Shown here piece after piece: positions 2,708 to 31,403 of a stretch of 31,403 bases of DNA. The stretch comes from a virus, in IMG/VR virus record IMGVR_UViG_3300027714_000068, positions 1-31,403 of that record. One strand, written 5' to 3'. The notes under the pieces were generated by a model. It was not told the DNA's origin, did not search any database, and saw nothing but the letters and a program-made list of their open reading frames with translations. Position 1 is the first letter of the stretch, and each line of letters opens with the position of its first letter. Position numbers and translations under genes: made by a program.

Positions 2708-4920
2708 TGTACGAGCAAAGTTTAGTTAAGACGGTTGAACCAATAAAGAAAACCACTATTTCCAGAATGAACAAAGGAAAGAAATGGAAGTATGGTTACA
2801 ACAAAGAACAGGACTTAATAGTCCTCTCGCGTACTGGTCAGATAGGAGAAATCATAGAAATACAAAACCTAGTCATTGCCTTACCTAAGGTGCCTAAGGA
2901 TGTGTATAAGGACCCGAAAGATAAATGGGTTAAGTTTACTCAACCAAAGGAGTTAGAGCGCTTAAAGAACATCTTTGATTGGCGCGCGTATCCAGAGGAT
3001 CAAAAGGAACAATGGTATGATTATATAGATGAAGAGTTTAGAAGAAGGGAGGAGGGTTTTTGGTTTACAAACAATGGTAAACCAACCTGGATGCCAGGAA
3101 CACACTACATGTACCTACAATGGAGTAAGATTGATGTGGGTGCTCCGGATTTTAGAGAAGCAAATAGATTGTTCTTTATATTCTGGGAAGCTTGTAAGGC
3201 GGACAAAAGGTGCTACGGAATGTGCTACCTTAAGAATAGAAGATCTGGATTTTCTTTTATGTCGTCTGCAGAAACCGTTAACTTAGCCACCCTTGCAGGT
3301 GATAGTAGATTTGGAGTATTATCCAAAACAGGTGCGGATGCAAAGAAGATGTTTACTGATAAAATCGTACCAATTAGCATAAACTATCCGTTTTTCTTCA
3401 AACCGATACAAGATGGTATGGATCGTCCAAAAACAGAACTTGCGTATAGAGTGCCATCCACAAGGTTTACTAGAAAGAAAATAACAGCAAACGAAAAGAT
3501 AGAGGATCTAGAAGGATTGGATACAACGATTGACTGGAAGAATACTGGAGACAATAGTTATGATGGTGAAAAACTAGCATTACTAGTGCATGATGAGGCT
3601 GGTAAGTGGGAAAGACCTGAAAACATATTAAACAACTGGAGAGTTACAAAAACTTGTTTAAGATTAGGATCAAGGATTATCGGTAAGTGTATGATGGGAT
3701 CAACATCAAACGCTTTAGATAAAGGAGGTGAGAACTTTAAAAAATTATACAATGCTTCAGACGTTACAAAACGAAACAGAAATGGTCAGACAAAGTCTGG
3801 TTTATACTCTTTGTTTATCCCAATGGAATGGAACTATGAAGGATTTATTGATGAGCACGGAGTTCCAGTTTTCACTACTCCTGATGTCGATCGGTTCGAC
3901 CCAAGCGGTGAATTAATAGATGTAGGTGTAATAGATAACTGGCAGAATGAAGTTGATGGTTTAAAATCAGACCACGATGGATTAAATGAATTCTACCGTC
4001 AGTTCCCAAGAACAACAGAACACGCGTTTAGAGACGAGAGTAAGAATTCTATCTTTAATCTCGTGAAGATATACGAGCAAATTGATTATAACGAAGAGAT
4101 GTCTAGAACATTAGGAATTACTCAAGGTAATTTTCAGTGGGTTAACGGTGTTAAGGATTCACAGGTGATATTTTATCCAGATAAAAAGGGTAGATTTAAA
4201 GTAAGCTGGGTTCCACCTCAACAAATACAAAACAACGTTGTACTTAAAAACGGTATAAAACATCCCGGTAACGAACACATGGGGGCTTTTGGTTGTGATA
4301 GTTACGATATATCAGGAACGGTGGATGGAGTTGGATCTAAAGGAGCTTTACACGGTTTAACCAGGTTTAGCATGGAAGACGCCCCAGCTAATAGTTTCTT
4401 TTTAGAATACTTATCTAGACCACCAACAGCAGAGATGTTCTTTGAAGACGTTCTAATGGCTTTAGTGTTTTATGGGATGCCAATATTAGCAGAGAACAAT
4501 AAACCTCGTCTATTGTACTATTTAAGACGAAGAGGATATAGAGGGTTTAGCATGAACAGACCTGATAAGATATGGAATAAATTATCTGTAGCGGAAAAAG
4601 AAGTTGGTGGAATTCCTAACTCTAGTGAAGACATAAAACAAGCTCACGCCGCTGCGATTGAAATGTATATACAAGATCACGTTGGAATGAAGCAAGATGG
4701 AACGTTTGGCGATTTGTATTTCAATGAACTACTAAACGATTGGAGTAGATTTGATATAAATAAAAGAACAAAGCATGATGCGTCAATAAGTTCTGGTTTA
4801 GCTATTATGGCGAACAACAGGCATTTATATGCACCAAACGCTAAAGTAGAAAAACCGAAGTTAAATATAAGTATTTCTAAGTATAGTAATACTGGAAATA
4901 ATTCACAAATAATCAAATAA
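2707..4920 (+). CDS. terL: Terminase large subunit (packaging ATPase-nuclease)
   Basis: 737 aa, a typical full length. It translocates DNA into the prohead at the portal and cuts the concatemer. N-terminal ATPase: a degenerate Walker A-like 'KNRRSGFS' (about 176-183), Walker B 'LALLVHDE' (290-297, with D296 and E297) and a coupling motif 'MMGSTSN' (329-335). C-terminal RNase H-like nuclease: 'FGCDSYDISG...GVGSKGA' (about 529-547, first acidic motif), 'FFLEYLSRP' and 'ILAENNK' (about 564-599), and 'KHDASISSGLAI' (689-700, last acidic motif with D691). The SGFS element lacks the canonical GK[ST]; similar Arg-rich variants occur, as I recall, in crAss-like and other Bacteroidota phages. It is translationally coupled to the small subunit and followed 5 bases later by the portal gene. 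Confidence 0.9.
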   Translation: MYEQSLVKTVEPIKKTTISRMNKGKKWKYGYNKEQDLIVLSRTGQIGEIIEIQNLVIALPKVPKDVYKDPKDKWVKFTQPKELERLKNIFDWRAYPEDQKEQWYDYIDEEFRRREEGFWFTNNGKPTWMPGTHYMYLQWSKIDVGAPDFREANRLFFIFWEACKADKRCYGMCYLKNRRSGFSFMSSAETVNLATLAGDSRFGVLSKTGADAKKMFTDKIVPISINYPFFFKPIQDGMDRPKTELAYRVPSTRFTRKKITANEKIEDLEGLDTTIDWKNTGDNSYDGEKLALLVHDEAGKWERPENILNNWRVTKTCLRLGSRIIGKCMMGSTSNALDKGGENFKKLYNASDVTKRNRNGQTKSGLYSLFIPMEWNYEGFIDEHGVPVFTTPDVDRFDPSGELIDVGVIDNWQNEVDGLKSDHDGLNEFYRQFPRTTEHAFRDESKNSIFNLVKIYEQIDYNEEMSRTLGITQGNFQWVNGVKDSQVIFYPDKKGRFKVSWVPPQQIQNNVVLKNGIKHPGNEHMGAFGCDSYDISGTVDGVGSKGALHGLTRFSMEDAPANSFFLEYLSRPPTAEMFFEDVLMALVFYGMPILAENNKPRLLYYLRRRGYRGFSMNRPDKIWNKLSVAEKEVGGIPNSSEDIKQAHAAAIEMYIQDHVGMKQDGTFGDLYFNELLNDWSRFDINKRTKHDASISSGLAIMANNRHLYAPNAKVEKPKLNISISKYSNTGNNSQIIK

Positions 4921-4925
4921 TAAAT

Positions 4926-7331
4926 ATGGCAGAGTCTGGCATTAAAAATTATTTTCCAAGTCAAACCGTAAGTGACGCTGAAAAGCTAAGCTATGAGTAT
5001 GGGTTAAAAGTTGGTAAAGCAATTGGACAAGAATGGTTTAATAACAACAGGGGTTCTAGTAAACACAGAACTGGGCAAAATAATTTTCATAACTTAAGGT
5101 TGTACGCTAGAGGCGAACAGTCTACTCAAAAATATAAGGATGAGTTATCTATAAACGGTGATTTGTCCTATTTAAATTTAGATTGGAAACCAGTTCCAAT
5201 TATACCTAAATTTGTGGATATAGTTGTAAATGGTATTGCCGAAAGGACATACGACATAAAGGCTTACTCACAAGACCCGTTTGGAGTAGCTAAGAGAACA
5301 GAATACATGGAGTCCATGTTAGGAGATATGGAAACACAAGAGATGGCTGATTTTGCGATGAAATCGTTTCAAATAAATCTCCTTGAAAACGATAAAAACT
5401 CTTTACCAGAGACAGAAGAAGAACTAAGTCTACACATGCAAATGACTTACAAGCAGTCGGTTGAGATAGCTGAGGAACAAGCTTTAAACGTTTTGTTTGA
5501 AGGTAGTAATTACGAGTTAATCAAGAAGAGGTTTTACTATGATTTAGCCGTTCTCGGTATCGGAGCTACTAAAACAACATTCAACACGTCGGAGGGTGTT
5601 GTTATTGATTATGTTGATCCAGCCAACTTAGTGTATTCCCATACTGATTCCCCTTATTTTGACGACATATATTATGTGGGTGAGGTAAAAACCATCCCGG
5701 TAAATGAACTCGCTAAACAGTTTCCTCACTTAACAGAGAGTGATCTTGAGGAGATAATGAGTAGTAAGTCAACACAATCGTCCTACAAGACCAACGAGGG
5801 AGATAACAATATGATTCAAGTCTTATACTTTAATTACAAGACTTATATGAACGAGGTATACAAAATGAAAGAAACCGCTAGTGGTGCTGATAAGGTTATA
5901 CCTAAAGATGATTCTTTTAACCCTCCAGAAGGGAAAGAAGGGGAATATAATAAAATGATGAGATCTATAGAGTGCTTATATGACGGGGCCATGATTGTCG
6001 GTACTGATAGATTGCTAAAGTGGGAGATGGCAAGAAACATGATGAGGCCAAAAAGTGATTTCACTAAGGTAAGAATGAATTACTCTATAGTCGCGCCTAG
6101 AATGTACAATGGTAAAATAGAATCATTAGTCAGTAGGATAACTGGTTTTGCCGACATGATTCAGTTAACTCATTTAAAGCTTCAACAGGTGTTATCAAGA
6201 ATGGTTCCTGATGGGGTTTACTTAGATGCTGATGGTTTAGCTGAAATTGATTTAGGTAATGGGACAAATTATAGCCCACAAGAAGCTTTGAACATGTTCT
6301 TCCAGACGGGTTCTGTTATTGGTAGGAGCTTTACCTCGGATGGTGATATGAATCCAGGTAAAATCCCAATTCAGGAACTTACATCTGGATCTGGTGGAAA
6401 TAAAATGCAAGCCCTTATAGGTAACTACAACTACTACATGCAAATGATAAGGGACGCTACTGGTCTTAATGAAGCGAGAGATGGTAGTACTCCAGATAAG
6501 AATGCTTTGGTAGGGGTTCAAAAACTTGCCGCAGCAAATTCTAATACGGCTACTAGACACATATTGCAAGCTGGGTTATATTTGACCGCATCTACAGCTG
6601 AGTGTTTATCACTTAGAATATCTGACATTATCGAACACTCACCAACTAAAGACGCTTTTATCCAAGCTATAGGCGCTCACAACGTCGCTACAATAGAAGA
6701 GATGTCAGAGTTACATCTTTATGATTTTGGAATATTCTTAGAGTTAATGCCAGATGAAGAGGAAAAACAGATGTTAGAGAACAATATCCAAATGGCATTA
6801 CAACAAAAAAGTATAGAACTAGAAGATGCTATTGATCTACGGGACGTAAGAAATGTGAAGTTAGCTAATCAACTTTTAAAGATACGTAGAAAAAAGAAAG
6901 AAGACAAAGATAGAAAACTTCAAATGGAGAATATCCAAGCGCAAACAAAGTCTAATACAGAGTCAGCACAAGCGGCTGCTCAAGCTGAGGTTCAAAAAGA
7001 ACAAGCGTTATCACAAACCAGAGGCCAGTTAGAACAAATGAAATCTGGTTTAGAGATACAAAAGCTAACTAAGGAAGCAGAGCTTAAGAAAGAATTAATG
7101 GCGCTAGAATTTCATTTCAACATGCAACTTAGGGGAATTGAGGTTGATGGGGTGAAGGATAGAGAGAAGCAAAAGGAAGATCGTAAAGATGAAAGAACAA
7201 AGATACAAGCAACACAACAATCAGAGATGATTGAACAAAGAAATAGTGGAAAACCACCTAAAAACTTTGAGTCCGCGGGTAATGATATACTAGGTGGAGG
7301 ATTTGATTTAGGCTCGTTTGAACCTAGTTAG
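4926..7331 (+). CDS. Portal protein
   Basis: 801 aa. The dodecameric portal forms the DNA channel at one head vertex and docks the terminase. Evidence: its place between terminase and scaffold; an N-terminal body with an 'NLRLYARGEQ' helix and a 'WKPVPIIPKFVDIVVNGIAER' stretch typical of portal wing/stem regions; and 'VIDYVDPANLVYSHTDSPYFDD', the conserved 'v.P.nv.yd...d.f.D' portal element. A long charged helical tail (about residues 614-770, rich in Gln, Lys and Glu) is a likely coiled coil, corresponding to the portal barrel or an inward extension. The last 21 residues include 'FESAGND' (781-787), which recurs in the scaffold as 'FDSAGND'. The stop is TAG. Confidence 0.85.
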   Translation: MAESGIKNYFPSQTVSDAEKLSYEYGLKVGKAIGQEWFNNNRGSSKHRTGQNNFHNLRLYARGEQSTQKYKDELSINGDLSYLNLDWKPVPIIPKFVDIVVNGIAERTYDIKAYSQDPFGVAKRTEYMESMLGDMETQEMADFAMKSFQINLLENDKNSLPETEEELSLHMQMTYKQSVEIAEEQALNVLFEGSNYELIKKRFYYDLAVLGIGATKTTFNTSEGVVIDYVDPANLVYSHTDSPYFDDIYYVGEVKTIPVNELAKQFPHLTESDLEEIMSSKSTQSSYKTNEGDNNMIQVLYFNYKTYMNEVYKMKETASGADKVIPKDDSFNPPEGKEGEYNKMMRSIECLYDGAMIVGTDRLLKWEMARNMMRPKSDFTKVRMNYSIVAPRMYNGKIESLVSRITGFADMIQLTHLKLQQVLSRMVPDGVYLDADGLAEIDLGNGTNYSPQEALNMFFQTGSVIGRSFTSDGDMNPGKIPIQELTSGSGGNKMQALIGNYNYYMQMIRDATGLNEARDGSTPDKNALVGVQKLAAANSNTATRHILQAGLYLTASTAECLSLRISDIIEHSPTKDAFIQAIGAHNVATIEEMSELHLYDFGIFLELMPDEEEKQMLENNIQMALQQKSIELEDAIDLRDVRNVKLANQLLKIRRKKKEDKDRKLQMENIQAQTKSNTESAQAAAQAEVQKEQALSQTRGQLEQMKSGLEIQKLTKEAELKKELMALEFHFNMQLRGIEVDGVKDREKQKEDRKDERTKIQATQQSEMIEQRNSGKPPKNFESAGNDILGGGFDLGSFEPS

Positions 7332-13261: not shown

Positions 13262-16200
13262 ATGCCAGAAATCAAGCATAATTTTACCGGTGGTAAGATG
13301 AATAAGGATCTCGACGAGAGACTTGTTCCCAATGGAGAATATAGAGACGCAATGAACATAGAGGTATTATCATCAGAGGGATCTGCTGTTGGTACTGTAC
13401 AGAACTTACTTGGCAATGATTATGGTTGTAATACTGGTGGTGCCGTTGGCTTAGGGTACACTGTGGGGTCTATTTCTGACGAACGAAATGACACGCTTTA
13501 CTGGTTTACCACTGATTCAGTTGCCGGTCAATCATCACTAGCGCCTGCTACTCTTTTGGAGGGGCTTGATAGCAATGATTTAGGCGTAGATGATATTTTA
13601 AATCCTATTGGAGGAGCTCACAGTCTTTATGCTGCTAACGGTGATGTAACTGATACTATCTTCCCCTTTAAAGACACAATAAGACGGAAAAAGCTTGATC
13701 AGTGTAGGGATGTCTTTGTTGATGTTTATGGGTTTATAACTCTTGTGCCAGACGGAAATCCTTCTGGAAGCACTTCTATGATTATGAATCTCTCTGATGA
13801 AGTGTTGCAGATGGTTAAAGAGGATTGGTTGGTGATGGGTGTAAATAGTAGCGGAGTGGTTTCAAACACTACCTCTGTTACCGGGCAAGACTATTTAGCG
13901 GGAACTCCTTTCACAGTAAATTATGACCCTGGTTATCAAACGTATGGTGGTTTTACGAGTGGAACGGTACATCTCAGCACGTTAGGAACGGGAGGGATGG
14001 GGGCAAATGATCCGATCACCTTTAGCTTATCACAATATCCAAATATTATTTATTTACCAGAAAATGCCTTTAGTCAAAACACGGGTGGTTTTAGTGGAAA
14101 CCCTCCACCTGGGGCTGAAATAACAATAAGTAATAATAGTGGAGACATCACTCTCCCAAACACAACGGTTGTTAGTTCATCGGTTGTAAGCATAGAATAT
14201 TATTCTGGTTTTGGAGAATTTCTAGTAGAAGTAGAACTTAGTTCGCCTTTCATTGGTAGCTTCTACGCTGATTGGAATTCACAAGCTGGTCCTCTTTTAA
14301 CCATTCCAGGTGGAACGCCTTGGGTTAATACTGGACTTGTTTACGGTAGCGGTTCCAGCTCTGCGACCCAAACAAATTTACTATCTGGTAGTCTTAGTGC
14401 TGGGGTTAGTTACCAAGCGGAATACGATACGGGTGTTACTAGATCAGATATAACTATCTCTGCTAGCTTTAATCTTGTAGATGATTGGAGTGTAGATGAC
14501 GTTGTTAAACCTACTTACTTATACCCTAGCGGAGGATGTATTGATTCAATCACTACTGACGCAAACGGTGATTACAGCGTGGTGATAAATGATTGTAGTG
14601 GTACTGTTATCTTCCCAGCGCAAGCAAGTGCTCATGTGAACATGTCGGATGGTTATCTGTTGGTGGAGATGGATGAGGTAGGGTCGATATACGTTGAAGA
14701 TTCGATTGATATGGGCGACGTGACCGCGCTCGTGTTTTCATCCCCCACCGAAAGGGTTTTAAGATTTGATTCGGGCAAACCAATTACCGGAATAAACATT
14801 ATTGATGACATGTTGTTTTGGACGGACGGTTACACGGAGCCTAAGAAGATAAATATATCACGTAGCATGAGGGGTACGGATGTTTCGGGACAAAGACACA
14901 CTAGACTTGTTAATGAAGATTTAGGAGTGGGATTAGATATTCCAGGACCTAACCTAGACGTATTGATAGCGGAAGAGCATGTAACGGTTATTAAGAAGTC
15001 ACCTCTAGCTCCAATGGGATTAGAATTTAGTACCGGTAGGAACGATAATTGGTCACAGTCCGCACAGATGCAAATTTCAAATGATACAAACGCTAACCAG
15101 TCGTCTTTTACACATAGTAGTGAGAGTAACGGGATCTACGACTTCTCGTCGCTCAAAGCTGGTGACTCCTTTCGGGTAGCAGTTTCTCAAGATGATGATG
15201 ATAATACAAATTTCACCTTGAGGGATTTAAAAGGGGCGAAGTGGACAGAGGGCACGGAGGTTGTTCTTAGAGAATACAACACCGAGGGTGAAGTATTGAT
15301 ACCGGTTAGAAACCCCAGGATAAAAGGGCGCATAGGTGGTTGGAGTGGTAATAGTTTTAAGGCTACAGATAACAATCCAGCACAGTTTGAGGTTGTAATT
15401 GAGTTCATGGAGGATGACATACCGAGCGCTGGGGATAGTGGGACGAGAAAGTTTGTTATAGATATTCTTGACCCCTCAGAAAACGTGTTTGAATTTAAGT
15501 TTCCTAGATTTTCTTATAGATATAAATACGAAGACGGGGAATACTCCACGTTTGCACCTTTTACAGAGGTAGCGTTTCTACCTGGAAACTTCGAATTCCA
15601 TCCTAAAGAAGGTTACAATCTAGGGATGACAAACTCTATAAAATCCCTGACCTTAAGAAATTTTAATGGAGAGGCAACACCTCCTGATGTGGTTAGTATT
15701 GATCTGCTATATAAAGATGATCATTCAACCAACATATATGTAGTGGACACTATAAGGCCAAAAGACGAGATTACTCCCAACCCGTGGAATGAGAATTCTT
15801 ACACTGTGACCAGTGATATCATACACAGGGTTTTACCATCAAACCAACTATTGCGCTCTTGGGACGCCGTCCCTAAAACAGCCTTGGCACAAGAGGTTGT
15901 GGGTAATAGACTAGTGTATGGTAATTATAAGCAGGGGTATAATTTAAAAAACAATGACGTTGACATCTACCCAAAGTTCATACACGAACTAACTACTATT
16001 AACAGTGACGTTAAGTCTATAAAATCACTAAGAGAGTATCAACTAGGAGTTGTTTTTGTAGATAAGTTTGGTAGAGAAACCCCCGTAATAACCAATCAAT
16101 CCGCAAGTTTTAAAGTAGACAAAGCAAGTGCTAAGCATAAAAATAAGATAAACGTTTCCTTTCAAGAAACCGCTAACGGAGGGAGTGGCGCGCCATCTGG

Positions 16201-19200
16201 CATGGATTTCTTTAAGTTCTATATAAAAGAAACCTCGGGCGAGTACTACAACATGGCAATGGATCGTTGGTATGACGCTGAAGACGGTGGTGTTTGGCTA
16301 TCATTTGCCTCCTCTGATAGAAATAAAATAGACATTGATACTTTTCTAATATTAAAAAAGGGGGTAGAATCTAGCAAACTAGTTGTAGATCCCGCGAGAT
16401 ATAAAGTATTGGCTATACAAAACGACGCTCCCGAATTTATCAAGATAAGTCAACACAATTGTGGTGAAATAAAGCAAATCAGAAATAACGAAAACTTATA
16501 TGAGGACGGTATCGAAAACGTTCCCATGCCTGGTAGGAATTGGTTTGCTGGAGACTTGTCTAGATTTGGTAAAACTAGTTTGAGAAGGTTAGATGAGTTG
16601 ATAATAGATCACGATATTTATGTTGACTTTTACAAGGCTGATGAGGTTAATATGAGTACACAGAAGTACAGGGTAACAAATTGCTCTAAACAAGAGGTGG
16701 ACGATGGTGATACGGTGGAGCATGGTTCGCACCAGTTCACTTTTAATATTGATGGGTATTTTGAAGATGACGTATACAGAATACTTCAAGGGCCTGATAG
16801 CTCCCCGACCGGTGTGAGTGAAAACACTGTCACCCGTTTCTACAAAGGTGTTAAAGAAGATTCTGCTAAGTTTGACGGTAAGTTTTTTGTAAAAATCCAC
16901 GCAGCTGGAAGTGCTTTTTCAACTACAATCTCAGAAGTAGATCTCGCTGAGATAGACCCTAAAGACTATACTACTCTCGCTGCTAAAAAAATATACTTCA
17001 TGGGAGGTGATTTAGCGGGTATTCACGAGGGTGATTATGGTTTTAAGGCTTTTGGAAATAATGATAGGGTTAAGAACGATATAATGTCTCTTGATCACAC
17101 TGGTGGCGTTAGTTATGATAATTTATATCTGACGGATTATGCAAACATTGCTGCTACTGCTGCAAGCATGCTTGGTGCAAAGGATATTCCTGGTGCGTTC
17201 AAGCTCAACAAGAAATTGACTAACTTGGCGCTTTGGCAGCAAGTTCCCGATAAATATCAAGCCTTTAGAGCTTATTTCAAAAATACCATTACAAACTTGT
17301 GGAATAGCCCAAATAATGACCACCGTAAGGAGGGTCTAGATACAATACCAGTACGTGAAGTTGGGGGAATTATGCAGTTGAAGGACGATTTGAATGGGTT
17401 CATTACAAATAATGAAAATTATTCAGGACACACTGTAACCATGTTTGGAATACAGGACGACTTAAAGATGAGGGGGAGAAGTTCCGAGTTTGCATATGAG
17501 GATGTGTTGTTTATTGACCAAGGACCTGTTGTTAATACAAACGGTTGGTGGAATGACGGGTGGAGAAAACATGGGTTTGGTGATACGGGTATGCGACCCG
17601 GGATAAGTAATTACAGTGATGTGGCGAGGGTAGAGCTGGGTCTTGGTCCTATTATGCCGGAAAAAGGTATTCCTTATAAAGATAAAGATTGGGCACCTAT
17701 GAGAAATTCAGGGGGTGGTTCACACTCAAAGTGGGAGTACTGGTCAAATATGTGGGATTTAAAAGATGATTCTAGAGATGTTTATAATAGCTCTGTGGAG
17801 GCGAGGGTCATGAGTAAGTTAGAGTCTGGAACTAAGTTTCGTTGGGCCGAAGATCCTAGTGGAACTATTTATACTGTATTTAAAGGCTATACTGAAGCTG
17901 CGCGTAATAGATATGAAACCAGGGGTGGATTCAAATCTTATGCTGCTGAGGCAAATCCCTGGATTAATGACCCATTCGCGGACAATTTATATTTTGATCA
18001 ATACGGACAAGCGCAATGGATGTCGGGGAAAACTGGTGGGGGGTATCTTCAAGATAGGATAAACCAGCCTTTTTATTACGCTGGAGAGAATTTCACTAGA
18101 AATAAACAGTTTTGGTGTTATCCAAGGATGAATTGGGAACCAACAATGCAGGGGATTACGGGGCCGATTGATGACGGTAGAGTGATAGATAAGTATGAAT
18201 ATAGCTCCGCTAATTATGATATTTTAGCTGTTGACGGGTCTTGGAACGATACTACTTTTGAGATTCATAAAGTGCATTTTGAGAATTCTCAAGACACGTC
18301 TGGATCGGGCTCTATACCAAGTCAAATAACAGTAGGTATGTTGTTGACACATGTCGGTGACGATGCTGTTGATGGGTTGACTGACAGTAATGGAAAATTA
18401 TTAAGAGGCGGATATTTAGTAAAAAGTATTACCCCGCCAGATAGTGGTGCTGATTATTATACGATAGAGTTTGAGGGTTACACGTCTATATATAGCAGCG
18501 GGATAGTTTCCGCGTCGGGTTGTGGCTCGTTAAACATACAACCGTGTTATGGAGAACCAGCTGACTTTAGCGGTAATAGAGCGTTAACATTTGTTCAACC
18601 AGCGATGAATGGGCTAAGTATTAACTCAGTTAAAAACGTTGGCTCACACTATAGTATATCGGGTAGGGTGATCGGGATTGGAGCTGTAGGTTATACTATG
18701 GAAGTTTTAGAGGAGATAAAAGAAAACAAAACCCTTCCAACTAACCCAGCTATATGGGAAACTGAACCTAAAGAATCTACAGATTTAGATATATACTACG
18801 AAGTGGGTGGTAAGAACCCAATCCGATTAAATGAAAAAACTATTGAAACAGCAATACCCTTAGGGTCAGAAGTGGTACTTCCTAACTCAGCAGGTGATCA
18901 CGCCAAAACTATTTTTGTGGAGAAATATTATCCGCCTGTTAGTAACACCATTGTTCTTGATGATTTTATTTGTGGAAATCAAAGTGGTGTTGATTGCGTT
19001 GGGGCTGATGGTGGTGATGTAAGTCCACTAAAACCAGGTGATAAAATCACGATTATCAAACCATCTGGAGAAAGAACTATCGTCACTATTGACGAAATTA
19101 AACCAGCTAATGAGGATTGGAGTGGTGAAGATCCACTTACTACAAGGGTGCTTAAGATAAGACGTAATTTATATAATAACAAACACATTTTAGGGTGGCA

Positions 19201-22200
19201 TAATTGCTACTCTTTTGGAAATGGGGTTGAATCTAATAGAATTAGAGATAATTTCAATTTACCATATATATCAAATGGTGTGCGAGCATCCGTGTCTTTA
19301 GAAGATTTCCCAAAAGAAGAAACAAGAAGTAGTGGTTTAATATACTCTGGTATATACAACTCAAATACTGGGGTTAACAATCTAAATCAGTTTATAATAG
19401 CTGAGAAAATTACGAAGGATGTTAATCCTACTTATGGTAGTATACAGAAGTTACACACTAGGGATTCTGACCTACTCACCTTGTGTCAAGACAAAGTGTT
19501 AAAAATACTTGCTAACAAAGACGCTGTATATAACGCTGATTCAAACCCACAGCTAATAGCGACTAAAAACGTTTTAGGGCAAACAATACCTTTTGTTGGG
19601 GAGTATGGTATATCAACTAATCCAGAATCTTTTGCGTCAGAAGCATATAGAGCTTATTTTACCGATAAAGTTAGAGGTGTTGTTATTAGATTGTCCAAAG
19701 ACGGTCTAACCCCAATATCAGACGCTGGAATGAAAGATTGGTTTAGAGATAACTTAAAACTAGGAGGGAGATTGATAGGTAGTTATGATGATAGGAAAAA
19801 CGAATACAACTTAACACTTAGAGGTGAGGTTAACAAAACAGTATCGTTTAGTGAAAGAGTTAAAGGATGGGTTAGTTTTAAATCATTTGTACCTGAGAAT
19901 GCTATTAGTTGTGCAAACGAGTACTATACGTTTAATGCTAACAACATATGGAAACATCATGTGGAGAGTTCTCCAAGAAACACGTTTTATGGTATCCACA
20001 CGCCATCTTGGTTTAATGTTTTACTCAATGACCAACCAGGTGTTGTTAAATCGTTTAAAACATTGAACTACGAGGGGTCTCAAGGGAGAATCGAGGGGCA
20101 AGCATCCTACCAAGTGTACATTCCAGGGAGTATAGATCCAAACACAGGAATAGGGATTATAAATCCAGATATACCTACCTTGCAAAGTGACGGGGAGTAC
20201 TATAACCTAGAAGGGAAAAATGGTTGGTATGTAGAAAATATTAAAACAGATTTAGAAGAGGGTAGTCTAAATGAATTTATAGAAAAAGAAGGAAAGTGGT
20301 TTAATTTTATTAAAGGTAAAGCAGATACTCAAACCACCTCAGGTACATTTTTAGGTGAGTTTGATAGTGGTGACGCGTCTTTTCAAGGGTTAGGTAGGTT
20401 AACTGGAGGTGTGTCTATAGCCAATATAAATGGGTGCACTAATCCCCTAGCATTAAACTATAATCAATTTGCTTTAGTGGATGACGGGTCTTGCGTGTTA
20501 GTGATACCTGGATGTGTAGATGCAAATGCCTTTAACTTTGACGCAAATGCTAACACTGATGATGGTTCATGTATGTATATGGGTTGCATAAACCCTAATA
20601 TGTTAAATTTTGATGCAAATGCTAATACAGATGATGGTTCTTGTATACCGTTTATCTATGGGTGTACCGATAATACTTCGTTTACAACGCAAGATTCTGA
20701 TGGAAACGTAGTTTCTTACCCACTACAGTCTAACTATAATGGAAGTGCTAACACGGATGATGGTAGTTGTATCGCAACTGTGTTGGGTTGTGTGGATACA
20801 ACTGCAACCAACTACAATGGTAATGCAAACATAGACAACGGGAGTTGTTCGTTCCCTGTATATGGTTGTGGCGACCTAGCCGCGTGTAACTACGATGCGA
20901 CGGTTACTGATCCCGATGGTTCGTGCTTATATTGTGGTAGTGCTACTGCTGATAATTACGACGCAGCTGATGCTAGCTGTCTTACAGGATGCTTGTGGTG
21001 CTTGTTTCATAATGCCTCTTTTCAAGTGACAAACCCCACAGACACTACACTAGAAGTAACATGGAGTAATCCAATTGGTGGGTCTGCTGTAGACATAACA
21101 ACGGGTGGTTGTTCTTACGTGGTTTCGTACTCTGTACAGGGGGAATCAGCTATAAACCAGGTAGCAACGACTCCTGTGCCTGGAACTAACACGTATATAA
21201 TACAAAACCTACAACAGGACACGGTATATGAAGTCTCAGCAAAATCAATTTGCAATACAACATCGTCTGATTGGAGCCCAGCGGCAACTATTCAGACGTT
21301 AATAACGGAGGTTCTTGGATGTGTGGATGCAGCCGCAATGAATTTTGACGCACAAGCAAACACAGATGATGGTACGTGTGTTGCATATATCTATGGTTGT
21401 ATGGATGCTATTGCAATAAATTACGATGCTGTGGTTAACACTGACGACGGTTCGTGTACTTATTGTGTGAACGGTTGTATGAATCCTGTAATGTTTAATT
21501 TTGACAATAACGCAACTTGTGATGATGGTAGTTGTATTGCAATAATAAATGGATGTATGGATTCAACGGCATTTAATTTTAACTCGGCAGCTAACACAGA
21601 TGATGGCTCTTGTGTAGCGATTAGTTATGGGTGTACTGACCCGGCGATGTTTAATTATGATGCTAATGCCAACACGGCTGATGGTAGTTGTGTTGTAATC
21701 ATAAGCGGGTGTACAGACGCCAACGCTTGCAACTACGACTCATCAGTGAATACTGATGATGGTTCATGTATACAATGTAATAGCAGTACCCTTATCATAA
21801 ACATGTCGGGGAATTGGAATTATGCCACGGCTGCTGGTAATTACTTAGATGGTGCAACGGCTGTTTGGAGTGTTAACTCTACACCCGACAACTCAACAGG
21901 TCATAGAATAAGATGGAGGAAAAGCAATCCAACCACTCCTTGGTCACAAGCAACCCTTTCGGGTGGCAGTGGGTCATACGGTATTGTTTCAACTTTTTTA
22001 GAAAACGTAGATTATGATTTCGCAATACAAACAGTGTGTGGTACTTGTAGTAGTGACTGGTCAGCAATAACAGTTGCTAACGCGGGAATTTACGCTGGTT
22101 GTACAGATGCGAATGCAAGTAACTACAACGCAAATGCCACTACAGACGACGGCTCTTGTACATATATTATTACCGGTTGTATGTATGGTCTTGCGGCTAA

Positions 22201-22492
22201 CTACGATCCTACCGCTACCGTGAACGACTTATCCTTATGTACTTGGGATTTTGCCACAGCGGGTCCTGGTTGTATGGATGCTACTCAGTGGAGCTATGTC
22301 GCTAACGCTACGTCTTCTGGTGGCGCGCCTTGTGAGCCATTTACTTATGGATGTACAAGTCCAACTGCTTCTAACTACAATGCTACTGTGAATACTGATG
22401 ATGGTTCTTGTATTTGGTTAGGTTGTACAGATTCAACTGCAACTAATTATGATAACACAGCGACAGTTGATGATGGTTCATGTTCATATTAA
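13262..22492 (+). CDS. Giant tail protein: nozzle/stabilisation-like body fused to a Cys-rich adhesin-like C-terminus
   Basis: 3076 aa, the largest gene here. It opens MPEIKHNFTGGKMNKDLDER followed by 'LVPNGEYRDAMNIEV', the N-terminal signature of beta-propeller tail nozzle/stabilisation proteins ('ERL.p.GEYrdA.Ni'). Propeller-like elements recur: 'ITGINIIDDMLFWTDGYTEP' (about residue 505), 'SLREYQLGVVFVDKFGRETP' (about 924), 'LLTLCQDKVLKILANKDAVY' (about 2069) and 'AYFTDKVRGVVIRLSKDG' (about 2131). From residue 2391 the protein changes character: 17 Cys-rich 21-residue-type repeats plus one degenerate copy, interrupted by two fibronectin III-like domains (about 2581-2683 and 2843-2940). In short-tailed phages the nozzle closes the tail tip, so the C-terminus would be exposed for host contact (inference). 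No signal peptide or autoprocessing motif is seen. Its codon use is less restricted than that of the capsid gene. Confidence 0.75.
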   Translation: MPEIKHNFTGGKMNKDLDERLVPNGEYRDAMNIEVLSSEGSAVGTVQNLLGNDYGCNTGGAVGLGYTVGSISDERNDTLYWFTTDSVAGQSSLAPATLLEGLDSNDLGVDDILNPIGGAHSLYAANGDVTDTIFPFKDTIRRKKLDQCRDVFVDVYGFITLVPDGNPSGSTSMIMNLSDEVLQMVKEDWLVMGVNSSGVVSNTTSVTGQDYLAGTPFTVNYDPGYQTYGGFTSGTVHLSTLGTGGMGANDPITFSLSQYPNIIYLPENAFSQNTGGFSGNPPPGAEITISNNSGDITLPNTTVVSSSVVSIEYYSGFGEFLVEVELSSPFIGSFYADWNSQAGPLLTIPGGTPWVNTGLVYGSGSSSATQTNLLSGSLSAGVSYQAEYDTGVTRSDITISASFNLVDDWSVDDVVKPTYLYPSGGCIDSITTDANGDYSVVINDCSGTVIFPAQASAHVNMSDGYLLVEMDEVGSIYVEDSIDMGDVTALVFSSPTERVLRFDSGKPITGINIIDDMLFWTDGYTEPKKINISRSMRGTDVSGQRHTRLVNEDLGVGLDIPGPNLDVLIAEEHVTVIKKSPLAPMGLEFSTGRNDNWSQSAQMQISNDTNANQSSFTHSSESNGIYDFSSLKAGDSFRVAVSQDDDDNTNFTLRDLKGAKWTEGTEVVLREYNTEGEVLIPVRNPRIKGRIGGWSGNSFKATDNNPAQFEVVIEFMEDDIPSAGDSGTRKFVIDILDPSENVFEFKFPRFSYRYKYEDGEYSTFAPFTEVAFLPGNFEFHPKEGYNLGMTNSIKSLTLRNFNGEATPPDVVSIDLLYKDDHSTNIYVVDTIRPKDEITPNPWNENSYTVTSDIIHRVLPSNQLLRSWDAVPKTALAQEVVGNRLVYGNYKQGYNLKNNDVDIYPKFIHELTTINSDVKSIKSLREYQLGVVFVDKFGRETPVITNQSASFKVDKASAKHKNKINVSFQETANGGSGAPSGMDFFKFYIKETSGEYYNMAMDRWYDAEDGGVWLSFASSDRNKIDIDTFLILKKGVESSKLVVDPARYKVLAIQNDAPEFIKISQHNCGEIKQIRNNENLYEDGIENVPMPGRNWFAGDLSRFGKTSLRRLDELIIDHDIYVDFYKADEVNMSTQKYRVTNCSKQEVDDGDTVEHGSHQFTFNIDGYFEDDVYRILQGPDSSPTGVSENTVTRFYKGVKEDSAKFDGKFFVKIHAAGSAFSTTISEVDLAEIDPKDYTTLAAKKIYFMGGDLAGIHEGDYGFKAFGNNDRVKNDIMSLDHTGGVSYDNLYLTDYANIAATAASMLGAKDIPGAFKLNKKLTNLALWQQVPDKYQAFRAYFKNTITNLWNSPNNDHRKEGLDTIPVREVGGIMQLKDDLNGFITNNENYSGHTVTMFGIQDDLKMRGRSSEFAYEDVLFIDQGPVVNTNGWWNDGWRKHGFGDTGMRPGISNYSDVARVELGLGPIMPEKGIPYKDKDWAPMRNSGGGSHSKWEYWSNMWDLKDDSRDVYNSSVEARVMSKLESGTKFRWAEDPSGTIYTVFKGYTEAARNRYETRGGFKSYAAEANPWINDPFADNLYFDQYGQAQWMSGKTGGGYLQDRINQPFYYAGENFTRNKQFWCYPRMNWEPTMQGITGPIDDGRVIDKYEYSSANYDILAVDGSWNDTTFEIHKVHFENSQDTSGSGSIPSQITVGMLLTHVGDDAVDGLTDSNGKLLRGGYLVKSITPPDSGADYYTIEFEGYTSIYSSGIVSASGCGSLNIQPCYGEPADFSGNRALTFVQPAMNGLSINSVKNVGSHYSISGRVIGIGAVGYTMEVLEEIKENKTLPTNPAIWETEPKESTDLDIYYEVGGKNPIRLNEKTIETAIPLGSEVVLPNSAGDHAKTIFVEKYYPPVSNTIVLDDFICGNQSGVDCVGADGGDVSPLKPGDKITIIKPSGERTIVTIDEIKPANEDWSGEDPLTTRVLKIRRNLYNNKHILGWHNCYSFGNGVESNRIRDNFNLPYISNGVRASVSLEDFPKEETRSSGLIYSGIYNSNTGVNNLNQFIIAEKITKDVNPTYGSIQKLHTRDSDLLTLCQDKVLKILANKDAVYNADSNPQLIATKNVLGQTIPFVGEYGISTNPESFASEAYRAYFTDKVRGVVIRLSKDGLTPISDAGMKDWFRDNLKLGGRLIGSYDDRKNEYNLTLRGEVNKTVSFSERVKGWVSFKSFVPENAISCANEYYTFNANNIWKHHVESSPRNTFYGIHTPSWFNVLLNDQPGVVKSFKTLNYEGSQGRIEGQASYQVYIPGSIDPNTGIGIINPDIPTLQSDGEYYNLEGKNGWYVENIKTDLEEGSLNEFIEKEGKWFNFIKGKADTQTTSGTFLGEFDSGDASFQGLGRLTGGVSIANINGCTNPLALNYNQFALVDDGSCVLVIPGCVDANAFNFDANANTDDGSCMYMGCINPNMLNFDANANTDDGSCIPFIYGCTDNTSFTTQDSDGNVVSYPLQSNYNGSANTDDGSCIATVLGCVDTTATNYNGNANIDNGSCSFPVYGCGDLAACNYDATVTDPDGSCLYCGSATADNYDAADASCLTGCLWCLFHNASFQVTNPTDTTLEVTWSNPIGGSAVDITTGGCSYVVSYSVQGESAINQVATTPVPGTNTYIIQNLQQDTVYEVSAKSICNTTSSDWSPAATIQTLITEVLGCVDAAAMNFDAQANTDDGTCVAYIYGCMDAIAINYDAVVNTDDGSCTYCVNGCMNPVMFNFDNNATCDDGSCIAIINGCMDSTAFNFNSAANTDDGSCVAISYGCTDPAMFNYDANANTADGSCVVIISGCTDANACNYDSSVNTDDGSCIQCNSSTLIINMSGNWNYATAAGNYLDGATAVWSVNSTPDNSTGHRIRWRKSNPTTPWSQATLSGGSGSYGIVSTFLENVDYDFAIQTVCGTCSSDWSAITVANAGIYAGCTDANASNYNANATTDDGSCTYIITGCMYGLAANYDPTATVNDLSLCTWDFATAGPGCMDATQWSYVANATSSGGAPCEPFTYGCTSPTASNYNATVNTDDGSCIWLGCTDSTATNYDNTATVDDGSCSY
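20432..22489 (+). repeat. Cys-rich GC...DGSC repeat array with two FN3-like inserts
   Basis: Encodes residues 2391-3076 of the giant tail protein. The unit is G-C-x-[DN]-x5-N-[YF]-[ND]-x3-[AV]-[NT]-x-[DN]-[DN]-G-[ST]-C, about 21 residues. I count seven units before the first FN3-like insert (the fourth carries an extra ~16 residues, the seventh is degenerate and lacks the leading GC), six between the inserts (from residue 2686) and five after the second (from residue 2946); the last ends two residues before the stop. The second and third units share almost identical DNA in their second halves (recent duplication); the others have diverged. Each unit has two Cys and several Asp/Asn, suggesting disulfide and perhaps calcium stabilisation (inference). 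Confidence 0.9.
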
Positions 22493-24728: not shown

Positions 24729-25151
24729 ATGGAAGACATTACGATACGACCTATAAGGGAGGAGGATTACGTACTTATAAATAACTGGTGGGAACAAATA
24801 AAGAAAACACCACCTCCTAGAAGTTTGTTACCAGAGAATGGTTTACATGGGCTTATGGCTTGTAAAGATGGTAGACCTATAGTTTGTACTTACTTATACT
24901 TAACAAATTCCAAGTTTGGATATTGTGATTACATGATAAGTGACAGTAGTTATAAGGGAAGAGATAGATTTGAAATAGTACTAAAGTTAATGGACATGTC
25001 GATTGGTACGGCTTGGGAATTGGGTTGTGAGGATTTCTGGTTTGTAACAAAAAGTAAAGGCATGCTAAAGAGATGCAAAGCTCTTGGAGTAAAAGTTTCA
25101 GAAGATCCATATTATTTAATATGCTCTTCAAATTCAAAAAAAGAAATATAA
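24729..25151 (+). CDS. GNAT-like N-acetyltransferase
   Basis: 140 aa, close to the size of a single GNAT domain. It begins 'ITIRPIREEDYVLINNWWEQ', the usual first strand and helix, followed by 'GLMACKDGRPIVCTYLYLTN', the beta-strand pair typical of GNATs, then helices and a closing strand 'DPYYLIC'. The acetyl-CoA pyrophosphate loop (usually [QR]xxGx[GA]) appears only as 'YKGRDRFE' (75-82), so it is divergent. Substrate unknown; phage GNATs sometimes modify host or virion proteins. An acetyltransferase inside a structural module is unusual in function but recurs in marine phages (recollection). It is 2 bases from the next gene and ends in a run of seven As before its stop. Confidence 0.6.
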   Translation: MEDITIRPIREEDYVLINNWWEQIKKTPPPRSLLPENGLHGLMACKDGRPIVCTYLYLTNSKFGYCDYMISDSSYKGRDRFEIVLKLMDMSIGTAWELGCEDFWFVTKSKGMLKRCKALGVKVSEDPYYLICSSNSKKEI

Positions 25152-25153
25152 AT

Positions 25154-26110
25154 ATGGCAAATAAAAATAAAAATACAGCACCTAGTCCTTTTCACAAAGG
25201 AGGCAAAGGAGAGGGTGATAGTAAGAAAAACTGGATGGGAAGAAAATTTTCAAGTATGGGGAGTTTTCTTAATCCATTTGGAGGATTTGGTAAAGGAGAA
25301 ACATATGGCGAAGACGAATGGGGTATTAAGGCGGCAACAGAAGATGCGGACAAGTCTTTTCAAGATTTTCAAGGATTAAAAGAAGGAGCTGGTGAAAATC
25401 TATGGGCTGGCGCTAAAAACTTAATTGATATTGATGATCATTTTGGTGGTTTAGATAATCCGATGGAAGATCTTACTGTTAACAAAGAACAAGTGCAATT
25501 TCAAAAACAAATGGCCACGCAACAAAACGTCAACATGATGGATATGATGATGGCTGGGGGTGGTGGCTCTGGCGCGGCGGCAAACGCTCAAGCGCTGTCT
25601 GGTATACAATCTCAACAACGTCAACAGCTCGGTGGGCAGATTGGTCAACAAGAATCCGCTAATCAAATGGCGGCAGCATCACAGGCTTCCCAAAACCAAA
25701 TGGCACAAGCAAAAGCACTTCAACAAGCGGATATGGCACAAGATCAAGGTGCTATGGAGGCTCAGAAATTCCAGTTACAAGGAGCTGCAGACGCTAGGGA
25801 GTTACAAATTCAAATGCAACAAGCGGAATTATCTTACCTAGCAGGACTTAAAGAATCCGCTGAGGCAAATAAGGATGTAGACACGGCTGGTAAGTCTGAC
25901 CGTAGATTAAAGAAAAATATAAACAAAATAGGTGAATCTGCTAGTGGGTTAAATATATATTCTTTTGAATATAAGAACCCGGCGGATGGCATAGGATTAT
26001 TCCAAGGCGTTATGTCTGATGAAATTCCACTAGAAGCTGTTGTTGAAAGTGGTGATTGGTATGATTTAGTAAATTACAGTATGTTGGACGTAGAATTTAA
26101 ACAAATATAA
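25154..26110 (+). CDS. Internal virion protein-like, Ala/Gln-rich, with truncated S74-type C-terminus
   Basis: 318 aa from ATG 25154. An upstream in-frame ATG (25073) would add 27 residues but lies inside the acetyltransferase gene; 25154 has the TAAATATGG context also seen at 26113. The N-terminus is basic and Gly-rich ('FHKGGKGEGDSKKNWMGRKF'). Residues about 110-245 are Gln/Ala/Met-rich and helical ('MMDMMMAGGGGSGAAANAQA', 'AQDQGAMEAQKFQLQGAADA'), like the small ejection protein (T7 gp14 type). From S248, 'SDRRLKKNINKIGESASGLN' resembles the start of a peptidase S74 intramolecular chaperone, but only about 70 residues follow and the usual trimer helix is absent, so it may be a remnant or a tail anchor. 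The gene order with two larger following proteins supports an ejection trio. Confidence 0.55.
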   Translation: MANKNKNTAPSPFHKGGKGEGDSKKNWMGRKFSSMGSFLNPFGGFGKGETYGEDEWGIKAATEDADKSFQDFQGLKEGAGENLWAGAKNLIDIDDHFGGLDNPMEDLTVNKEQVQFQKQMATQQNVNMMDMMMAGGGGSGAAANAQALSGIQSQQRQQLGGQIGQQESANQMAAASQASQNQMAQAKALQQADMAQDQGAMEAQKFQLQGAADARELQIQMQQAELSYLAGLKESAEANKDVDTAGKSDRRLKKNINKIGESASGLNIYSFEYKNPADGIGLFQGVMSDEIPLEAVVESGDWYDLVNYSMLDVEFKQI

Positions 26111-27943: not shown

Positions 27944-30900
27944 ATGCCAAAGTATATATTAAATGGAGAGCCTATTGAAGTAGCTCCTGAACACGTTAAA
28001 ATTTTCGAAATACAGAACCCTGGGGTTAAACTAGATAAAGAACAATTAATAAAAGACATTGCTCCTACGCCGGGAAAGTTAACGGGCCCTGCGTCAAAGA
28101 GTACGGATTCAGGGTCGGGCGATGGTTCGTCGGTATTAGTTCAAGATAGAGCTGCAGTTCAAGATAGAGCTGCGGTTCAAGATAGAACCGTACGGCCAAA
28201 TATTGTTATACCAGAAATAATAGGTGAAGCTCCAGATCTAACTATGGAGGATGTTCTTATGACCGACGAAGAAAGAACAGAGTTTGATCGCAAAGCTGAA
28301 GAACAACGTCAAAAAGGTGTTGAAGGTCAAAAACTTTATTTAAGAGAAAAACAAATAAAGGATAAAACAGGTCTTTTGCCTTCTAAATATCCAAGCTTAC
28401 AAGTTGGTACAGAAAAACAACCTCACATGGGACAAGTTGTAGATGTTCCAATATACGAGCAAGCTGATTTAGAAAAAATGGAAGAGATAACAGCTAATGT
28501 TACTTCTGAATATAGAAATGCATTTAATTCTTTAATGTCTGACGAACTTGAAACGCTTCAGAATTATGCTGAAGATCCTATGACTTATGAAAATGAGTTA
28601 AATGAAACTCATGATCAAGTATTTGCTGTAATGCAGGAAAAATATCCAGGTTTAGATAAACGAGCCTTTATGGATATAGTTGGTAAAGGTGGTGATGGTT
28701 TGTTTCAAACAGCTTTAAACAAAGTAACCGTTGAAGACAAAGAAAGGGATAATGCTGAAAATTTAATAGGTGCTACAACTTTGGATGAAGGTGTTTATAA
28801 GCAGATATTTAATCAAACTAGTCAAAACTTTAGTGAAAAAGAATTAAAAAAACAAGAATTAAATACTTTAATAAGGAAAAAAAATAGAGATTTAATTAGG
28901 TTGCAGGAAGAAGGTGGAGACGCTGGTGAAATAAAAAGATTAACATCAGAAATAAAAACTCATCAAAATGATATACAAAAGCTAGCAACAACAAAAACTA
29001 CCACTTCCGCTGGTCAAGGCGGGCTAGGCGCTTACACTAAACAGATTGAGGTTGTGGACAAGAAACTTGCTAGCTCGTACATGGACAACGAAACCACTGA
29101 GTATCGTCAAGGAAAGATAGATAAAGCAAAAAAAGATCTTGATGGAACTTTACTCACGCAAGTTCAAGAGCAAAAAATTAAAAATCCTAAGCTAACAGAT
29201 TTTGAGGCACATGAGTTACTGTATAAATCTAAAGCTTATAACTTACAGCAACTTTGGGCTACCGGTAACACGGAAACGGTTAATTTAAAGTTCAACGGTG
29301 GTTCGGCGCCAGACTTATATAAAAAACTAATTGAAGGTGGTTATATAAATAAAGAGCAACAAGAAAACTATACTAAACTTAATTTAAACGTTCCTATTAA
29401 AGCTCTGTTTGATGCTGGTTATGACGGTAGGGATTTTGAAGGACTTAGTAACACTCTAGGTTATAACGTTGATATCAAAGAAGATGATAGAAAAAAATTA
29501 TTAAACTATGAGTCGTCTATATACAGAAACAAGGGTGAGCTAGAATTACTACATGAATTAACATATGTAAACAACAATCCCGCAACGTTTGATAGAGGAG
29601 GTTTTATTGGAGAGGTTACTAGAGCTGGGTTATCAGCTACACTTACTCACTTTACAGATATACACCCTATAGAAGCAGACAAATTAGCGTCACTTGGGCC
29701 AGGTGCCACTGAATCTAAGCAACTTGAAGAGTTTGAGAAACTTGGAAACACTTACAACGAAGCGTTTAAAAATGAAATTGCAAAAGGAGAGATTGATGAA
29801 TTAGGTTTTACTCCAGATCAATTAAAAGCTATAGAAAGAACTCTTGGTGAAGAAGTTGGTGAAGGTTTTGGACATTTTGTTCCTATGCTTATAGAGCTCG
29901 GTGTTATATCTGCGGCTACAGGAGCAACTATGACGGCTACTGGTTTAACCAGAGTGTTAGCTGGTATGAGAAATGCTGGTGGTTGGAAGAAAGCTCAGTA
30001 CCACGCTATAATGACAATGGTTGAGGAGGGTAAAATGTTCACCGCTGGTTTCCAACCTGGCGCCGGTGCTGGTTTTTATGCTGGTGGTCAACTAACTTCT
30101 GGGTTTACACCATTTAAAAAACGATTTAAGTGGATGGATCCACTCTTTCAAAAAGTCGTAAAAGGTGGTCCAGTAGGAGCCGCTTCAGCTCAAATAGCTT
30201 TTAATATAGAAACTGGTATACAAGATTTATTAGGTAATAAAGATTTTCAAGCTACATTTGATCAACACTACGGTGATTTAACGTTTAAAGATGTAATTGT
30301 AGAGGGCATGGTATTTAGTATAGCTGGAGGAATGCATGTTAAGAAGACTGACTTTATGTCTACTAGGCGTAAGTACGATGCTATGACAGAGTTGAAGGAT
30401 AAGATGGGTGAGCTTATTGAAAAGCCAACCGGTCAACTTGGTAAAGAAGGTGTTGGTAGAGCTTTAGAAACTGCTTTTACCACAGATGCAGAGGGTAATA
30501 TAGTTCGTACTCGTCCAGAAGGATATGAAATGATGAGTAAAGAACAGCAAATGAAATGGGAGTCTTTAAACGAAGCACACAAAGCTTTAGATCAAATGAC
30601 TAAATTTGAGACCACAGCCATAGAGCTTGATCCCAACAACAAGGACTTTGTATCTAACGTGGACAAAATGTTTACGCAACCTATGAATGAAACCTTAAAA
30701 TCTGTAAACAAAGAATTTGAAGGGTTTGAAGTTGAATTTACAGAAAACCCAAAAGACCCAAGATTTCCCGAGGGTGCAGACGGCGCTGCTTTTATACCTG
30801 GTGAAGGTAAAAATCCAGGCACGGCTTTGTTTGTAAAAAATAAATTTACTCCAGAAAAACTGACGCACGAGGTGTTAGGTCATGCTGGTCTTGAATCTTA

Positions 30901-31403
30901 TTTTAACCGCAACCCCCAAGCAGAGGTTAAATTTAAAAAAAATATATCTAAGTTATTTGAGAAGTTTGATTTTCAAGCGTACGATGGAACACCTCTTGGT
31001 GAATTTATAAAGAAAAACTATAGTAAAGAAATTGGTAAAGGTAACAATATAGAACCACGAGAGTTTTTTGCTTACATGTTTGAATTATTGACTGATCCAA
31101 AAATATATTATCAGAAGGTGGCACCGACGTTTTTTAAAGAAGCAAAGCAAGAAATGTTATCTATGTTTGAAGAAGCTACTGGTATAAAACCAAAAATTAG
31201 AAATGTAAAACAATTTGTAGATTTTATAGGTAGATTATCTATAGACGCAAGAAGGGGATTAAATATTCAAACTAAAGTCGCTACACTTGCTAATTTAGAA
31301 GATTTAGATTTTCTTGGTATTGAGTTTGTTGAAAATCAAAGAAAAAATTTAGATAAAGCTGTAGATCAAGGTTATAGTTCAAAAAATTTAAATAGACAAA
31401 AAG
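27944..31403 (+). CDS. Large internal/ejection-type protein with HEVLGH metallopeptidase motif (3' partial)
   Basis: Open from ATG 27944 to the window end (at least 1153 residues, no stop). Starts 'MPKYILNGEPIEVAPEHVKI'. Residues 66-83 carry short VQDRAA/VQDRTV repeats. A long charged helical region follows, then a Gly/Ala-rich hydrophobic part with 'FVPMLIELGVISAATGATMT' (about 642-661), 'AGFQPGAGAGFYAGGQ' (about 700) and 'GPVGAASAQIAFNI' (about 744). At 975-980 is HEVLGH, an HExxH zinc-peptidase motif, and at 1037-1047 'EPREFFAYMFE' supplies candidate third-ligand glutamates as in gluzincins. As the last and largest of the ejection-type trio it could enter the host envelope with the DNA, with membrane-active and peptidase parts (inference). 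T7 gp16 instead carries a transglycosylase, so this would be a different enzyme. The C-terminal end is outside the window. Confidence 0.65.
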   Translation, partial: MPKYILNGEPIEVAPEHVKIFEIQNPGVKLDKEQLIKDIAPTPGKLTGPASKSTDSGSGDGSSVLVQDRAAVQDRAAVQDRTVRPNIVIPEIIGEAPDLTMEDVLMTDEERTEFDRKAEEQRQKGVEGQKLYLREKQIKDKTGLLPSKYPSLQVGTEKQPHMGQVVDVPIYEQADLEKMEEITANVTSEYRNAFNSLMSDELETLQNYAEDPMTYENELNETHDQVFAVMQEKYPGLDKRAFMDIVGKGGDGLFQTALNKVTVEDKERDNAENLIGATTLDEGVYKQIFNQTSQNFSEKELKKQELNTLIRKKNRDLIRLQEEGGDAGEIKRLTSEIKTHQNDIQKLATTKTTTSAGQGGLGAYTKQIEVVDKKLASSYMDNETTEYRQGKIDKAKKDLDGTLLTQVQEQKIKNPKLTDFEAHELLYKSKAYNLQQLWATGNTETVNLKFNGGSAPDLYKKLIEGGYINKEQQENYTKLNLNVPIKALFDAGYDGRDFEGLSNTLGYNVDIKEDDRKKLLNYESSIYRNKGELELLHELTYVNNNPATFDRGGFIGEVTRAGLSATLTHFTDIHPIEADKLASLGPGATESKQLEEFEKLGNTYNEAFKNEIAKGEIDELGFTPDQLKAIERTLGEEVGEGFGHFVPMLIELGVISAATGATMTATGLTRVLAGMRNAGGWKKAQYHAIMTMVEEGKMFTAGFQPGAGAGFYAGGQLTSGFTPFKKRFKWMDPLFQKVVKGGPVGAASAQIAFNIETGIQDLLGNKDFQATFDQHYGDLTFKDVIVEGMVFSIAGGMHVKKTDFMSTRRKYDAMTELKDKMGELIEKPTGQLGKEGVGRALETAFTTDAEGNIVRTRPEGYEMMSKEQQMKWESLNEAHKALDQMTKFETTAIELDPNNKDFVSNVDKMFTQPMNETLKSVNKEFEGFEVEFTENPKDPRFPEGADGAAFIPGEGKNPGTALFVKNKFTPEKLTHEVLGHAGLESYFNRNPQAEVKFKKNISKLFEKFDFQAYDGTPLGEFIKKNYSKEIGKGNNIEPREFFAYMFELLTDPKIYYQKVAPTFFKEAKQEMLSMFEEATGIKPKIRNVKQFVDFIGRLSIDARRGLNIQTKVATLANLEDLDFLGIEFVENQRKNLDKAVDQGYSSKNLNRQK
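28139..28192 (+). repeat. 18-base tandem repeat (VQDRAA units)
   Basis: Three consecutive 18-base units, GTTCAAGATAGAGCTGC[AG] twice (28139-28174) then a diverged copy (28175-28192), encode VQDRAA-VQDRAA-VQDRTV in the Ser/Gly-rich linker of the large internal protein. The first two copies differ by one base, so expansion is recent. Confidence 0.9.

Follow-up and report, generated by a model that had tools for sequence, protein, structure and literature searches.

The stretch of viral DNA analysed here (the window; 31,403 nucleotides) ends within a very large reading frame whose product carries the sequence HEVLGH. The question it raises is whether this sequence marks a working metallopeptidase and, if so, what such an enzyme does inside a giant phage protein. 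The frame at 27944-31402 is open at its 3' end after 1,153 residues because the IMG/VR source record is itself a 31,403-base fragment, and the remainder lies beyond the record. Full-length relatives are about 2,900 aa long (2,894 in L001, 2,920 in L003 and 2,914 in L027). Only the first 1,153 aa of the window's own giant being present, the multi-domain content discussed below is taken from relatives. The features of the window on which the argument draws are as follows.

2707-7331, plus strand: terminase large subunit and portal protein, placing the phage with the Elemovirus/Cellulophaga/Maribacter phage group
27944-31402, plus strand: 5' part (1,153 aa, ATG start) of the giant protein at the end of the structural module
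30647-31180, plus strand: predicted zincin metallopeptidase core (AlphaFold2 on 37 homologues)
30866-30883, plus strand: HEVLGH, residues 975-980; predicted zinc ligands H975 and H980, predicted general base E976
31061-31063, plus strand: E1040, predicted third zinc ligand, 60 residues past H980; Glu in 37/37 homologues
31082-31084, plus strand: E1047, conserved acidic residue on the same helix as E1040 (31 E, 5 D, 1 Q)

The terminase and portal are akin to those of Flavobacterium phage Elemovirus, of Cellulophaga, Maribacter and Tenacibaculum phages and of the spring-water podovirus MW202828, and the window phage is of flavobacterial type. The giant is the terminal protein of the structural module; a preliminary description of this DNA presumed it to be an ejection protein. 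The same slot in cultured relatives is occupied by giant proteins annotated 'structural protein', such as the 3,694-aa gp21 of Elemovirus. From the annotation of related phages and the position of the gene, the giant is probably packed in the particle and injected.

Other products of the region merit mention. No further protease had been thought visible, which is not quite right: a Peptidase_S74 match (an intramolecular chaperone/autoprotease), just over the Pfam cut-off, lies near the C-terminus of the product of 25073-26110, the second gene upstream of the giant's. This frame overlaps the previous one, and its true start may lie downstream of 25073. A small GNAT-acetyltransferase-like protein is encoded within the structural module at 24729-25151, and in MW202828 the protein at this slot carries the annotation of an acetyltransferase subunit. 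The tail-module protein at 13262-22492 (3,076 aa) ends in many GCxDxxAxNYxxxANxDDGSC repeats, with fibronectin-III-like stretches between them; the repeat type is one known from Bacteroidota surface proteins.

Conservation of the predicted zinc site

HEVLGH at residues 975-980 and EPREFFAYMFE at 1037-1047 lie where they were originally placed. The former is an HExxxH motif, one residue longer than the HExxH of ordinary gluzincins, with the extra residue aligned as V977. HExxxH occurred in 1.5% of shuffles of the window ORF, and HExxH or HExxxH in 3.1%, so that some 3% of ORFs of the same composition would offer a motif of this kind without function.

A DNA pattern based on the giant's conserved C-terminal domain retrieved 56 virus-contig stretches, nearly all of which encode that domain, and the portal was 65-78% identical to the window's in 19 of the 21 contigs checked. 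An iterated profile of the peptidase region gathered 37 members of one phage group, the window counted among them as L004. One of the 37 domains is fragmentary and lacks the stretch with the HExx(x)H motif. When these domains were aligned, the column of E1040 was Glu throughout, while those of E976 and H980 were Glu and His, respectively, in 36. In the column of H975, 34 domains had His and two (L049 and L080) had Gln. The spacing between the second His and E1040 ranges from 47 to 82 residues. EPREFF begins with a Glu, E1037, that lacks such conservation: it is Lys in L001 and most often Lys across the family. Outside the near clade, identity to the window's domain is mostly 9-33%. Early relatives displayed both forms of the motif at the same place: HEVLGH in L001 and L002, and HEMSH, HEISH and HELTH in L003, L022 and L027, respectively.

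The preliminary description had let its reading depend on relatives keeping His and Glu at these sites. The exceptions are the sister lineages L049 and L080, which have QExxH at residues 863 and 816 (stop-to-stop frame numbering), with Gln in place of the first zinc His; both retain the Glu, the second His and the third-ligand Glu. All other members that cover the site keep the full set.

An alignment in which the motif was not used as a guide gave the same residues prominence. Sixteen full-length giants from other contigs, aligned whole, share 116 invariant columns in total. Before the C-terminal domain (residue 1853 of L055), only four columns are invariant among the 319 filled in all 16 rows, and these four hold both His and both Glu residues of HExxH...E. 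It is difficult to account for the invariance of these residues, and no others in that region, by anything but a catalytic or metal site. By these alignments the motif is real and beyond chance, because of its conservation across very divergent homologues and not because of the single motif match. Given this invariance and the fold predicted below, a chance motif without function is scarcely credible, and the alignments already refute it.

The family extends to cultured phages. The A3 profile matches Elemovirus gp21 (YP_010108907.1) at E 1e-9, where the motif reads HEIFH. A profile built from the zincin-like stretches of Elemovirus, Gundel_1 and MW202828 can be aligned with the family across the motif (hhalign probability 88.6, E 2.6e-6). 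Elemovirus gp21 thus shares with the window giant both its slot at the end of the structural module and a homologous zincin domain (HEIFH at residue 1543); its site is of the HExxH form, and the other parts of the protein are largely unrelated. More HEFGH zincin-like domains were observed in related giants, at residues 1615 and 2500 of that of MW202828 and at residue 1337 of Gundel_1 gp074. The Gundel_1 domain and the second of MW202828 match each other (blastp E 2e-12).

Predicted fold and comparison with known zincins

AlphaFold2 with the 37 sequences predicts a core consisting of an N-terminal helix (residues 902-921), three strands (929-933, 948-952 and 959-964), the motif helix (970-989) and a Glu helix (1036-1049), followed by helices to 1079. 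Mean pLDDT was 70.5; values were about 80-92 over the part that runs from the N-helix up to the motif, and 55-84 over the later helices. An earlier model from seven sequences (mean 60) was weak and has been replaced, although it gave the same order of elements.

In Foldseek comparisons with the PDB, the best E values were 0.26-0.46, and no match reached E 0.001. The lists are dominated by zincins (LF-like proteins, 4l7a, PPEP-1, matrix metalloproteinases), none of them significant alone. LF-type zincins, 4l7a and PPEP-1 led the list of the first model, and about 30 of the 50 matches listed for the second were zincins or the N4 virion RNA polymerase (9pnt). Among predicted viral proteins (BFVD), the top match had a probability of 0.97 but did not reach E 0.001; the matches listed include proteins annotated as polyvalent, a virion RNA polymerase and zincin/SprT/IrrE proteins. 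These comparisons are consistent with the predicted zincin fold.

Profile searches against families, as proposed in the preliminary description, found no curated family that recognises the domain. When the window protein and full relatives were scanned with Pfam and PHROG, no zincin family emerged, and no RNA polymerase was recognised in the full relatives. The Pfam model MPTase-PolyVal (PF18818) had no match in eight records at E up to 10, nor was one listed for the 37 domains. A tblastn search of the domain against phage records gave no match, and GTDB genome contigs yielded no relative by protein or DNA pattern. A sequence-profile search of the PDB gave chance-level matches only, a few of them near the motif to serralysin-type proteases. 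One Pfam candidate, DUF705 (E 0.0048), did not reach its cut-off, and its match is outside the domain.

The closest known parallels are the zincins (MPTases) of 'polyvalent' giant proteins from phages and plasmids. No other domain is as common in those proteins, and a set of MPTases with HEXXXH has already been reported (Iyer, Burroughs, Aravind 2017, PMC5512222). The core of these zincins is that predicted here (N-helix, three strands, HExxH/HEXXXH helix, Glu helix), and they too occur in giant multi-domain phage proteins with other enzyme domains. The differences are twofold. Firstly, the window domain has no match to PF18818, which is a single model whereas the paper describes 12 clades. 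Secondly, the HExxxH of the window arises inside an HExxH family. We therefore claim the zincin kind and the polyvalent architecture, and not membership in the curated PF18818 model. A further parallel is offered by gp50 of N4, the virion RNA polymerase, whose C1 domain carries HExxH (PMC12633501, PDB 9pnt). Here a zincin-like domain resides in an injected virion protein of about 3,500 aa, although its match in the Foldseek list is not significant.

Taken by itself, the identification of the domain as a zincin is one in which we have great confidence. H975, H980 and E1040 would bind zinc, and E976 would activate the water. Of the original proposal, a zincin-type domain with Glu as third ligand is supported, but the gluzincin layout as first read is not: the motif exceeds HExxH by one residue, and it is E1040, not E1037, that matters.

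The extra residue of HEVLGH

Among the 37 domains, HExxxH occurs only in the window, L001 and L002; the remainder that cover the site have HExxH spacing (QExxH in L049 and L080). In a domain tree rooted on Elemovirus, the three form one clade (support 0.998) nested within HExxH members, so the one-codon insertion is derived, and the tree indicates that the HExxxH form arose once from the HExxH form.

Such an insertion might have broken the geometry of the site, leaving a structural or metal-binding module in the window clade from which cleavage has been lost. The rarity of HExxxH in the family speaks for this, as does the loss of the first His in L049 and L080, from which activity may be dispensable. 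However, all ligands and the general base are retained, and codon differences suggest that the site is being kept. Around HEVLGH, synonymous and nonsynonymous differences number 11:1 against L001 and 10:2 against L002. In the Glu helix they are 8:1 and 12:0, respectively, and over the whole stretch 80:40 and 75:37. By these counts the HEVLGH codons are under purifying selection, and the low nonsynonymous share at the motif and the Glu helix therefore points to a site maintained rather than decaying.

There is, furthermore, a precedent for a working HExxxH. Dipeptidyl peptidase III has the motif HELLGH, with zinc bound by H450, H455 and E508, and a form with a one-residue deletion has a very similar metal site (PMC3268031). 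By analogy, a bulge in the helix could accommodate the extra residue of HEVLGH. On these grounds we consider loss of cleavage improbable.

The third ligand of dipeptidyl peptidase III (family M49) lies 52 residues on, compared with 60 in the window. M49 enzymes are, however, exopeptidases of about 720 aa with another fold and have no sequence or fold match to the window domain. The resemblance of HEVLGH to HELLGH is convergent. M49 itself, considered on account of this resemblance, was rejected on fold and sequence: it had no Pfam match, and none of its structures featured among the PDB matches listed by sequence or by fold.

Possible roles within the giant protein

In relatives, the conserved C-terminal domain (about 700 aa) is preceded by one of two enzymes, with which it forms a C-terminal module. 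These are a HAD-type phosphatase (FDFDET...LTAR...VDDA) and a P-loop protein resembling zeta-toxin/polynucleotide kinase (FLAGGAGSGKS), located as follows (stop-to-stop frame numbering).

HAD-type phosphatase: residue 2064 of L001, residue 1857 of L055, and many relatives
P-loop kinase: residue 2000 of L066, 1921 of L087, 1994 of L102, 1363 of L106, 1748 of L081 and 475 of L062

The two do not occur together in any listed member, as though one replaced the other at a single site. The presence of several unrelated domains in one long polypeptide, a putative zincin together with a phosphatase or kinase in relatives, fits the polyvalent plan.

The preliminary description had suggested an envelope-breaching (peptidoglycan) or capsid-maturation peptidase, to which the presence of a scaffold and the presumed nature of the giant as an ejection protein lend some plausibility. 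The position is not that of a prohead protease: head maturation proteases usually lie between portal and scaffold, while this zincin lies inside a giant of about 2,900 residues whose slot is one of injected or virion-internal proteins. Nor does it belong to any known type of peptidoglycan peptidase, and HExxH zincins are not known to form a peptidoglycan-cleaving family. Related phages are, moreover, annotated with separate cell-wall enzymes (M15 peptidase, D-Ala-D-Ala carboxypeptidase, amidase). We regard this suggestion as very unlikely.

We infer proteolysis and virion delivery, and the substrate may then be the giant itself or a host protein. In the first case, the main task of the zincin would be to cut its own polypeptide, in the particle or after delivery, and self-cleavage would free the N-terminal part, the C-terminal module and the portion between them. 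We place self-processing first because P1 DdrB is processed, on which the self-processing argument of Iyer et al. is based (PMC5512222), and because the domain is flanked by variable N-terminal parts on one side and by an exchangeable enzyme module on the other. The giant protein showed no conserved cleavage site.

In the second case, the same zincin would be injected as an effector and would cleave a host protein early in infection, an option also offered by Iyer et al. (PMC5512222). The domain diverges fast, as its low identities attest when set against those of the portal, yet retains its catalytic residues. Such divergence is, however, common to the whole of the N-terminal 1,850 residues of the giants and singles out no host target. 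We consider a host-directed role a possible but doubtful explanation. Self-processing would thus be the most likely role and host-directed cleavage the second.

The reading as a whole is that residues from about 900 to 1080 form an active zincin (HExx(x)H...E), engaged mainly in self-processing, within a giant, multi-domain, probably virion-packaged and injected protein of the polyvalent type. Against it we count the virion RNA polymerase of N4, packaged uncut despite its MPTase domain (PMC5512222), the two relatives with QExxH and the lack of a curated family match. With these considered, we judge the chances of the complete reading to be evenly balanced. A bolder formulation, to which we give slightly less than even weight, has two parts. 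Firstly, a traceable one-codon insertion would have converted the HExxH site of an injected protease to a HExxxH site that is active, giving a natural parallel to the pair formed by HELLGH and the one-residue-deletion form of dipeptidyl peptidase III. Secondly, the giants of this group would constitute an unrecognised zincin family that delivers a processing protease together with swappable HAD-phosphatase or kinase modules.

Zincin domains in polyvalent phage proteins, including the HEXXXH set, are already known; what is new is a zincin member in the giants of an aquatic phage group. Part of the largest protein still uncharacterised in a widespread group thereby gains a function, and the only residues invariant in the first 1,850 or so positions of that protein are those of a protease. 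The occurrence of both zinc-site lengths within one family may be used to test how zincins tolerate the additional residue; what proteases do in injected proteins can be tested in Elemovirus, a relative in culture on Flavobacterium sp. BAL314.
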